From contig NZ_JABCQG010000001.1 in NCBI RefSeq assembly GCF_015244565.1, forward strand, positions 186,001 to 250,000: a stretch of 64,000 bases of DNA, written 5' to 3'. How positions within the stretch are numbered: position 1 is the first letter of the stretch; every line of letters starts with the position of its first letter. Source of the DNA: Gluconobacter vitians. GTDB lineage: Bacteria; Pseudomonadota; Alphaproteobacteria; Acetobacterales; Acetobacteraceae. The position numbers were made by a program, and so were the translations under genes. This document shows, piece by piece, positions 49,632 to 51,788 of this stretch. Under the pieces are notes generated by a model. That model saw only the letters and a program-made list of their open reading frames with translations. It was not told the origin of the DNA and made no database searches.

Positions 49632-50402
49632 ATGGCTTTCAATTCCAACTTCAGCAGAGCCGGTGTACAGGCCGGAGCCGGCAGTCTCGACGCCGGGCTT
49701 CGCGCTTATATGTGCCGGGTCTTTAACTGGATGGCGCTTGGTCTGGTGATCACGGGACTGGTCGCCTATGGCGTGGCGCAGACATCCCTGCGCGCTCTGT
49801 TCTTCCATCTGGCCGAAATGCCGAACGGTGCCATCGTCCTGCGTCCGACCCTGCTTGGCGGGATTAGCATCTTTGCGCCGCTCGTGTTCGTGATGGTGTT
49901 GTCCTTTGGGGTCAACCGTCTGTCCCGCCCGGCTGTACAGGGGATTTTTCTGCTGTTCAGCGCCGCGATGGGTGCCAGCATGGCCAGCCTTCTGCTGAGC
50001 TATACGGGCGTTTCCGTGGCGCGGACCTTCTTTGTGACCGCCATTACATTCGCAGGAATGTCGCTGTGGGGATACACGACGGGTGCCAATCTCGCTCGAC
50101 TCGGTTCGTTCCTGTTCATGGGGCTGATCGGGATCATTCTGGCGTCTGTGGTGAACATTTTCCTGCACAGCTCTCCGCTTGCCATGCTGGTTTCAGTAAT
50201 AGGTGTGGGTCTTTTCACGCTGCTGGCAGCCTATGACACGCAGCGCATCAAGATCACGTATCAGCAGTACATGGCTTATGCTGGTCCTGAGGAAGTTGCG
50301 AAGCTCAGTGTCTATGATGCGCTGACGATGTATCTCAATTTCGTGAACCTGTTCCAGTTTCTCATCCAGTTCATGGGTGTTCGTTCAGGTAACAACGACT
50401 GA
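49632..50402 (+). CDS. Bax inhibitor-1/YccA family membrane protein
   Basis: A 256-residue inner-membrane protein of the BI-1 family, with seven hydrophobic helices. The family features YMCRVFNWMALGLVITGLVA at the start, GMSLWGYTT, LGSFLFMGLIGIILASVVN and the C-terminal YDTQRIKITYQQY are present. Homologues (YccA, YbhL) interact with FtsH or act as calcium or proton leak channels; the role here is not known. AAAAGG precedes the ATG. A terminator-like hairpin follows, so it is probably monocistronic and upstream of the cyo leader region. Confidence 0.95.
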   Translation: MAFNSNFSRAGVQAGAGSLDAGLRAYMCRVFNWMALGLVITGLVAYGVAQTSLRALFFHLAEMPNGAIVLRPTLLGGISIFAPLVFVMVLSFGVNRLSRPAVQGIFLLFSAAMGASMASLLLSYTGVSVARTFFVTAITFAGMSLWGYTTGANLARLGSFLFMGLIGIILASVVNIFLHSSPLAMLVSVIGVGLFTLLAAYDTQRIKITYQQYMAYAGPEEVAKLSVYDALTMYLNFVNLFQFLIQFMGVRSGNND

Positions 50403-50435
50403 CAATACTGTCCGGACGATACTGGGCATGATGGA

Positions 50436-50472
50436 AGGGGTGGCAGTTAATGCCGCCCCTTTCTGCTTTTTG
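50436..50472 (+). terminator. Terminator of the BI-1 family gene
   Basis: An 11-bp stem (AAGGGGTGGCA with TGCCGCCCCTT, one G-U pair) with loop GTTAA, followed by a broken T-tract (TTTCTGCTTTTT). Confidence 0.8.
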
Positions 50473-50772
50473 GACCAAAAAAGTCTTGAATTATTCTCGC
50501 GAATTCTAAATCGGTTTACATTAAAAATCGGTAATGTTCGTGTTTAATGAAAGTCGTAATTCGATCAAATGTGGCGAAAAACAGCCATTTCACCTTGGGG
50601 TCGATCTTGGAGGAGGGCTCACGAAATCCGTGATAAGCCTTGTCTTTAAGGCGATTCAGGCAGAAAAAACCTGAGGAACCGGGACAGCCGTGTCCCATGC
50701 TGAATGAATTTCAGGGTCGGATCTTTGATCCGGTTCCTGACGTCAGGATACGAACGAGAAAGGTAGCAGACT
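50473..50772 (+). promoter_or_regulatory. Upstream region of the cyo operon: AT-rich promoter part and palindrome-rich leader
   Basis: No convincing protein gene lies here. The first 100 bases are AT-rich (several TTTACA- and TTGAAT-like hexamers) and probably contain the promoter; no single one stands out. From 50656 inverted repeats follow closely: TCAGG/CCTGA (50656-50674), GGGACA-GCCG-TGTCCC (50681-50696), CGGATC-TTT-GATCCG (50718-50732) and CCTGACGTCAGG (50736-50747). In addition AGGAACCGG (50674-50682) can pair with CCGGTTCCT (50730-50738), which excludes the others. This looks like a structured 5' leader or a group of operators. Confidence 0.55.
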
Positions 50773-50853
50773 ATGGCAGCGTTCGGCGGCACTGATGTGG
50801 ACCTTATCGTGTCAAACCGTTTCCCGGCGACTACTGCAAGCCGGAACGGATGA
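50773..50853 (+). CDS. Possible 26-codon leader peptide overlapping cyoA start
   Basis: An ATG preceded by AGAAAGG opens a 26-residue reading frame (starting MAAFGGTDVD, ending TASRNG) whose TGA stop overlaps an in-frame ATG of cyoA (ATGATG). If translated it would couple ribosomes to cyoA. No run of a regulatory amino acid is visible. It may be a chance frame; the evidence is the ribosome site, the exact overlap and the structured region before it. Confidence 0.4.
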   Translation: MAAFGGTDVDLIVSNRFPATTASRNG

Positions 50854-51788
50854 TGAAAGCAGGACCGATGAAAAAACTCTGGCGATATCTCCCAGCGTTG
50901 CCGGCGCTGATGCTATCGGGTTGTACGGTTGATCTGCTTCAGCCGCGCGGCCCGGTCGCAGAAATGAACCGCGATGTCATGGTGGCGGAATTCGTCATCA
51001 TGATGCTGATCGTGGTTCCCACCTGCGCCGCGACGCTTTATTTTGCGTGGAAGTATCGTGCTTCCAACAAAGAGGCCGAATACCTCCCGACCTGGGATCA
51101 TTCGACCGCTATTGAATATGTCATCTGGGGCGTTCCCGCTCTGCTGATCGCCATCCTTGGTGCCATCAGCTGGTGGAGCACGCATGCCTATGACCCGTAC
51201 CGCCCGCTTCAGACGGCTGACAACGTCAAGCCCCTGAATGTTCAGGTGGTCTCTCTCGACTGGAAGTGGATGTTCATCTATCCGGACCTGGGGATCGCAA
51301 CGATCAACCAGCTGGATGTGCCGACGAACACGCCGCTGAACTTCCAGATCACATCTGACTCCGTCATGACGTCGTTCTTCATCCCCCGTCTGGGTTCGAT
51401 GATCTACGCCATGCCGGGTGAACAGACCCAGCTGCATCTGCTTGCAAGTGAATCCGGGGATTACCTCGGTGAGGCTTCACAGTTCAGCGGCCGTGGTTTC
51501 TCGGACATGAAGTTCCGTACTCTTGCCATGGATCCGGCTCAGTTCAATGACTGGGTTGAGAAGGTGAAGAGCGGAAGTGAAAATCTCGACGACACCACAT
51601 ACCCGAAATATGCTGCACCGCAGGAAGCTGCACCGGTACAGTATTTCGCGCATGTCCAGCCGGATCTCTTCGACGGCATCGTTGCCAAGTACAACAACGG
51701 CATGATGGTGGACAAGAAGACGGGCAAGGTCATGCACATGCAGTCTGCTTCCAACGCTGCACCGTCCGACACTGGCATGAAGGAATAA
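50850..51788 (+). CDS. cyoA: Ubiquinol oxidase bo3 subunit II
   Basis: CyoA (312 residues) is subunit II of the cytochrome bo3 ubiquinol oxidase. It is a lipoprotein (lipobox LMLSGC, C25 from this start) with two membrane helices ([20 protein letters not shown] and [20 protein letters not shown]) and a periplasmic cupredoxin fold ([40 protein letters not shown]). As in quinol oxidases it lacks the CuA ligands of cytochrome c oxidases. The start may be this ATG, the next one three bases on, or MKKLW at 50868. First gene of cyoABCD. Confidence 0.96.

Follow-up and report, generated by a model that had tools for sequence, protein, structure and literature searches.

The cyo operon in the 64,000-nucleotide stretch of Gluconobacter vitians DNA analysed here (the window) is preceded by what looks like a conserved, structured RNA leader that lies outside Rfam, and covariation is present across its relatives, both in a group of related bacteria and in an Asaia-like group. 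We lean, by a little, toward reading the region as the structured 5′ leader of the cyoABCD mRNA in which a 26-codon upstream frame is translationally coupled to cyoA; the coupling, the RNA start and the regulation are parts of this reading that we infer. The frame probably governs the efficiency with which the first oxidase subunit is made. Acetic acid bacteria make their living by oxidizing substrates incompletely, with the bo3 quinol oxidase as one of their main electron outlets, a role that a 2013 paper cited in PMC5756330 reportedly names in its title. If the leader controls cyoA translation, it would give strain work in Gluconobacter a target and a direct means of adjusting respiratory capacity. 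A sequence-only reading of this DNA had proposed a post-transcriptional switch in front of cyo, made of mutually exclusive stems. Post-transcriptional control there is likely, because homologous leaders covary and a covariance model carries over from one group to the other, but a switch built on the stems listed in that reading is unsupported. The 26-codon frame and the structure 3′ of 50747 are features beyond it.

The cyoA start and a promoter-like element

Upstream of cyoA lies a Bax1-I family gene (Pfam), followed by a terminator-like hairpin at 50433-50463, an arrangement that makes a separate promoter for cyo probable. The named CyoA proteins closest to that of the window belong to Gluconobacter species (89–100% identity). 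The longest cyoA frame begins at 50850, 18 bases 5′ of the homologous start at 50868, and overlaps the stop of the upstream frame. Since genomes of the related group lack an in-frame start at the position of 50850, this is probably not the real start of cyoA, and we shifted the start by homology to 50868; the gene (Pfam COX2 / COX_ARM) is thus placed at 50868..51788 on the (+) strand.

A promoter-like element, TTGTCT-N17-GAAAAA with the conserved spacer ATTCAGGC, is located at 50640..50669 on the (+) strand and was recognized by its recurrence upstream of cyoA in the Acetobacteraceae. In an ungapped search with a pattern close to TTGCTTT-N7-ATTCAGGCGGAATAA, 80 of 120 Acetobacteraceae upstream regions scored at least 15 of 22, compared with 34 of 2400 Markov-shuffled regions; as the consensus was drawn from the same, related sequences and the search fixes the spacing, this count serves to describe the pattern more than to test it. 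The 120 regions are what is left of 158 loci once identical ones are removed, with L081/L199 and L109/L204 still doubled, both without the element. The element is visible in printed sequences from genera whose flanks have diverged. Eleven of the 12 upstream regions of group g31 (L019, L153-L157, L159, L161, L162, L164 and L168) score below 14, and the remaining one, L021, reaches 15, at a questionable position. A sigma-70 consensus scan of 50380-50900 found no promoter. The G. oxydans promoter is given loosely as ttGnnn and nAtnnn with 16–23 bases between (PMC5756330), and the element roughly matches this description, with a poor −10 (GAAAAA). A regulon marked by the element was considered and rejected, as the pattern has one mismatch-free match in its own genome and three more at three mismatches.

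Two further sequences upstream of the element were noted. Directly 5′ of the −35 is a perfect inverted repeat, TCACGAAATCCGTGA (50619-50633), with TCACGAACTACGTGA and TCACGGAACCCGTGA in L050 and L051, and this is a possible activator site. Farther 5′, the sequence AAATGTGGCGAAAAACAGCCATTT (50567-50590) is common to Gluconobacter and Neokomagataea, with diverged bases after it, and is a possible regulator site or second promoter.

Predicted folds of the leader and their covariation

The sequence-only reading counted four inverted repeats within 92 bases, with their arms unlisted, and these are real. We found five short repeats and a 9-base pair: CAGG/CCTG (50657-60/50670-73), GGGACA/TGTCCC (50681-86/50691-96), CTGAA/TTCAG (50700-04/50710-14), GGATC/GATCC (50719-23/50727-31), the palindrome CCTGACGTCAGG (50736-47) and the 9-base pair AGGAACCGG/CCGGTTCCT (50674-82/50730-38), which a repeat finder with a minimum length of 8 returned as the only repeat in the stretch, extended to 14 bases at 86%. 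The leftmost repeat, however, is likely promoter and not RNA. It overlaps the element seen in front of cyoA across much of the Acetobacteraceae, which puts the probable start of the transcript at about 50670-50677. CAGG/CCTG was rejected as an RNA stem on account of this overlap and of its CCTGA arm, which is CCCAA in L050 and L051. Were the RNA to begin at 50640, ensemble folding would let the CAGG/CCTG stem win (0.96), with the 9-base pair down to 0.11–0.18.

The 9-base pair cannot coexist with the CAGG/CCTG stem or the palindrome, and it overlaps the first hairpin and the third by two bases each. It had been expected to break two or three of the stems, and folding 50650-50760 alone agrees, with the leftmost stem and the palindrome forming in its place; this fold is in moderate excess over shuffles (z −2.52, 3 of 200 shuffles as good). 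The longer leader, 50590-50870 (z −3.29, 0 of 200 shuffles as good), instead forms seven of the nine pairs together with all three inner hairpins. In the ensemble of an RNA spanning 50674-50860, these seven pairs stand at 0.74–1.0, the inner hairpins at 0.87–1.0 and a further hairpin, H4, at 0.94–0.97. Since the 9-base pair and the three hairpins form together in the ensemble, we model them as one four-way junction at 50674..50738 on the (+) strand, with AGGAACC/GGTTCCT closing H1 (50681-50696), H2 (50700-50714) and H3 (50719-50731). In these folds the 9-base pair closes the three hairpins more than it competes with them, and its real competitor would be the CCTGACGTCAGG palindrome, the one true competition that the models leave in Gluconobacter. 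CCT 50736-38 is common to the two helices, and slight shifts of the RNA ends exchange one for the other: in RNA 50674-50930 the 9-base pair is down at about 0.11, the palindrome reaches 0.81 and H4 is gone, and in RNA 50670-50930 most of the 9-base pair is back at 0.87–0.96, with H4 still absent.

The structured unit is predicted to extend 3′ beyond 50747. H4 (CGTCAG/CTGATG plus CGAACG/CGTTCG), at 50741..50797 on the (+) strand, folds around the start codon of the upstream frame and its ribosome site. H5 (CCGTT..CCGGC/GCCGG..AACGG), at 50802..50863 on the (+) strand, covers the end of that frame just before cyoA, and its weaker outer pairs, CCT/AGG and TGTCA/TGATG, reach the cyoA ribosome site.

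Within the genus, a DNA match to the leader was present in 22 of 26 genomes, at 83–100% identity in 21 (its own included) and partial in the 22nd. These 22 loci reduce to just 11 distinct leaders, so covariation has little scope to show inside Gluconobacter. The closing stem, that is the 9-base pair, is invariant in the 21 genomes (10 distinct leaders), but three of its seven pairs are broken in L052, a divergent congener, and a covarying 9-base pair was rejected on these grounds. The hairpin stems of the junction are likewise constant in the 21 genomes, save for H3 in L044 and L051, and loop changes are few. Double changes occur in 4 of 61 predicted pairs, all in L052, and the covariation term is slightly unfavourable (+0.33).

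Covariation is instead found in the related group, which consists of g33, g61 and g101 (CyoA 64–68% identical) and has 16 loci with a homologous leader, or 14 leaders once L169 and L172 are dropped as duplicates. Here 94.3% of the cells pair and 16 of 43 pairs are changed on both sides. The 41 double-change cells compare with a shuffled mean of 15.1, with 0 of 500 shuffles reaching 41 and with 3–14 in slid structures, a count that is favoured by the structure having been predicted on the same alignment. The double changes fall in H1 (4 pairs), H3 (7), the inner stem of H4 (1 of 6), the H4 tip (2 of 4) and H5 (2), with none in the H4 outer stem or the outermost helix; the closing stem is not predicted in the consensus fold of this group. 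The alignment and covariation check proposed in the sequence-only reading, run here with shuffled and slid controls, was divided in its outcome: Gluconobacter is too conserved and its 9-base pair shows no covariation, but the related group covaries strongly.

The consensus of an alignment of both groups (A3, 20 rows) is weak (−12.56), and in 8 of its 25 pairs both partners have changed. The inner stem of H4 is kept in 19 of its 20 rows, in one of these minus one pair, and is broken in L052; the outer CCT/AGG of H5 can pair in all 20. The H4 3′ arm of the related group (ATCCTGAC) has a second complement in the cyoA ribosome site (CAGGAT), which makes the two helices exclusive, and one consensus fold picks the H4 outer stem and the RNAalifold model structure the ribosome-site pairing. 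The equivalent CCT in Gluconobacter (50802-50804) falls outside H4.

A covariance model was built from the 14 related leaders, from H4 to cyoA and with zero Gluconobacter sequences; its structure, from RNAalifold, holds the inner H4, H5 and the H4 3′ arm paired with the cyoA ribosome site, and not the H4 outer stem. This model matched the window at 50742-50876 with 63.4 bits and four other Gluconobacter leaders with 62–82 bits (26 sources), the next match in its own genome being at 11.8 bits. A sequence-only model gave the window 54.7 bits, from which we attribute the larger part of the score to sequence and possibly 6 to 16 bits to structure; L052, in the opposite direction, scored 19.6 bits with structure versus 22.6 without. 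The covariance model had no match among the Neokomagataea, Asaia-like or other leaders searched, and the sequence-only model had two weak Neokomagataea matches near the cyoA start (14.7 and 13.5 bits). Rfam returned no matches in the window at gathering score, and a lax search of 50400-50900 returned three, all far below gathering, the best of them, Va-907, lying 5′ of the leader (18.5 of 45 bits, E 0.0058).

The 26-codon upstream frame and possible coupling to cyoA

The upstream frame, with GAGAAAGG ahead of it, occupies 50773..50853 on the (+) strand; it begins inside H4 and stops 14 bases 5′ of the cyoA start. It is open in 19 of 20 leaders (8 of the 11 distinct Gluconobacter leaders and 12 of the 14 in the related group), compared with 7 and 5 of 20 for the +1 and +2 frames, plain counts over sequences that share kinship. 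Its length is 26 codons in 18 of the 20 and 28 in L016, with a frameshift in L163, and the distance from the first base of the stop to cyoA is 17 (Gluconobacter) or 14 (related group) in 19 of 20. The shift in L163 comes from a single base inserted into the last hairpin's loop, which is either an error or a hint that the last residues are immaterial.

The peptide, as judged from the aligned codons, is not conserved although the frame is retained. Variable sites are spread over codon positions 1/2/3 as 11/12/12 in Gluconobacter, 16/11/16 in the related group (counted without L016 and L163) and 10/5/8 in the Asaia-like leaders, and pairwise single-base codon differences are 37 synonymous and 107 non-synonymous in Gluconobacter and 138 and 186 in the related group. 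A conserved leader peptide of the attenuator or arrest type was rejected, given that the variable sites have no codon-position bias. The peptide has no Pfam match and neither a CXXC nor a RAPP motif.

With the frame held unpaired, the cyoA ribosome site was predicted to cost less to open in 18 of 20 leaders, in an uncontrolled comparison. The mean cost went from 4.0 to 1.9 kcal/mol in Gluconobacter and from 6.5 to 4.4 kcal/mol in the related group; the fall was below 2 kcal/mol in 10 of the 18, there was hardly any in L046, L051 and L016, and it was reversed in L163 and L171.

This anatomy fits translational coupling by unfolding or re-initiation. As we picture it, the promoter at about 50640-50669 would yield an RNA beginning near 50670-50677, carrying in order a multi-helix fold, a hairpin holding the ribosome site of the frame, and a hairpin at the end of the frame beside cyoA. 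Ribosomes on the frame would unfold this last hairpin, H5, and stop 14 bases 5′ of the cyoA start, and we propose that cyoA translation would thereby be coupled to translation of the frame. H4, around the ribosome site of the frame itself, would be the point where control acts. Against this reading, the outer pairs of H5 give the cyoA ribosome site little predicted cover in the window (0.14–0.47 in an RNA running to 50930, in which the inner stems stand at 0.63–1.0), and H4 is lost when the RNA reaches 50930. The sigma-70 scan, the lower score of L052 with structure, the small or reversed changes in opening cost, the L163 frameshift and the long leaders of g43, g60 and g73 also weigh on that side.

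The sequence-only reading named an attenuator, a riboswitch or a thermosensor as candidates. Intrinsic attenuation of the amino-acid leader-peptide type was rejected, because the sole terminator-like site in 50380-50900 is the hairpin at 50433-50463, 5′ of the promoter, with none after the promoter; the other two types have no Rfam match at gathering score. Attenuation through Rho, with translation of the frame shielding the leader and transcription ending before cyoA when the frame goes untranslated, would suit a leader that spans about 190 bases, holds a short frame and yielded no intrinsic terminator, and has a precedent in the Bordetella CruR frame, which acts by Rho-dependent termination (PMC9426467). 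Dense folding of the leader would in general be unfavourable to Rho loading, however, and we regard this explanation as improbable. A riboswitch or protein-binding switch formed by the four-way junction, one state having the 9-base pair and the other the palindrome, is close to the sequence-only reading and would account for the exchange of the helices that share CCT 50736-38 and for stems and loops that are conserved beyond the needs of pairing in the 21 Gluconobacter genomes; against it, the closing stem is broken in L052 and missing from the related-group prediction and no Rfam family reaches gathering score, and we give such a switch very little credence.

The leader might instead mainly stabilize the cyo message, its 5′ fold blocking attack and the frame serving as a ribosome loading site only, without any signal. 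That the peptide is not conserved speaks for this, as does a promoter-proximal hairpin: a perfect hairpin of 5–8 pairs lies 7–14 bases past the element in 50 of 89 leaders, in 28 different forms, and in this place, which is that of H1, it is found in 29 of 53 distinct starts compared with 11.8 on average in shuffles, where 100 sets gave at most 18. Stems of at least 6 pairs number 26 in the 53 starts against 4.7 in shuffles (highest, 11). The first 45 bases as a whole, however, are no more stable than shuffles (median z −0.49, n = 52), and stabilization leaves unexplained why the ribosome site of the frame sits in a hairpin and why the length of the frame is kept. A G. oxydans decay study, by term search, mentions cytochrome bo3 in its reference list only. 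We consider stabilization as the main role unlikely.

The coupled reading has partial counterparts among known systems. In Salmonella, mgtQ before mgtB is, as proposed for the cyo frame, a short frame that on being translated releases a downstream ribosome site from a stem-loop, but it has 8 codons, lies between two operon genes and needs acidic codons, whereas the cyo frame has 26 codons in a 5′ leader and a peptide that is not conserved (PMC8092293). The CruR (DUF2946) frame of Bordetella also heads an operon and exerts post-transcriptional control, as the cyo frame would; unlike the cyo frame, it encodes a conserved protein with CXXC and RAPP motifs (PMC9426467). Translationally coupled neighbouring genes resemble the leader in having a stop and a start close together and structure at the downstream ribosome site, but the first frame of the cyo leader encodes a short non-conserved peptide and is not a known gene (PMC12548453). 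The Rfam cis-regulatory elements of G. oxydans 621H are similarly long structured 5′ leaders, and none of the seven in Table 2 of that source is at cyo (PMC5756330). Two G. oxydans transcriptome papers contain cytochrome bo3 in their reference lists only, by a term search of the text available, and no description of the leader turned up in the literature on cyo with Gluconobacter, an upstream frame, an untranslated region, a leader peptide or oxygen limitation (mostly open main texts). In Asaia bogorensis, a cyo operon typical of the family is expressed less in co-culture with mammalian cells, so the amount of cyo RNA varies with conditions there (PMC4596401).

Leaders elsewhere in the Acetobacteraceae

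The leaders of the wider family could belong to one RNA control device for the main terminal oxidase, fast-changing in sequence from lineage to lineage, but retaining a promoter-proximal hairpin and a frame free in its peptide whose ribosome site is folded away, through which a cell signal would set the amount of oxidase. We hold this to be a speculative and rather unlikely extension; were it true, oxygen, acid, the supply of haem or copper, and translation capacity would be candidate signals.

Groups g43, g60 and g73, which we guess to be Acetobacter-like, have the promoter element and a leader of about 340–410 bases, with no clear upstream frame in the few examples examined. Covariation was moderate in g43 (21 cells versus 8.1, 0 of 200 shuffles) and slight in g60/g73 (5 cells versus 2.4, reached by 1 of 200 shuffles). 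The g31 leaders gave 16 cells versus 6.9 (0 of 200 shuffles), and the four Neokomagataea rows gave 2 versus 0.7, a value reached by 28 of 200 shuffles.

The Asaia-like leaders (9 rows, about 345 bases) showed double changes in 26 of 108 pairs, amounting to 47 cells compared with 16.5 in shuffles (0 of 200 as high) and 10–13 in slid structures. They have a hairpin soon after the promoter element and, together with neighbouring groups, a frame of 37–40 codons near or overlapping the cyoA start, and by comparison of the sequences their design appears analogous to that of the Gluconobacter leader. In three of them, L005, L006 and L007, the ribosome site of the upstream frame is by eye complementary to the first codons of the same frame, with GGATG/CATCC in L005 and GAGAA/TTCTC in L006.
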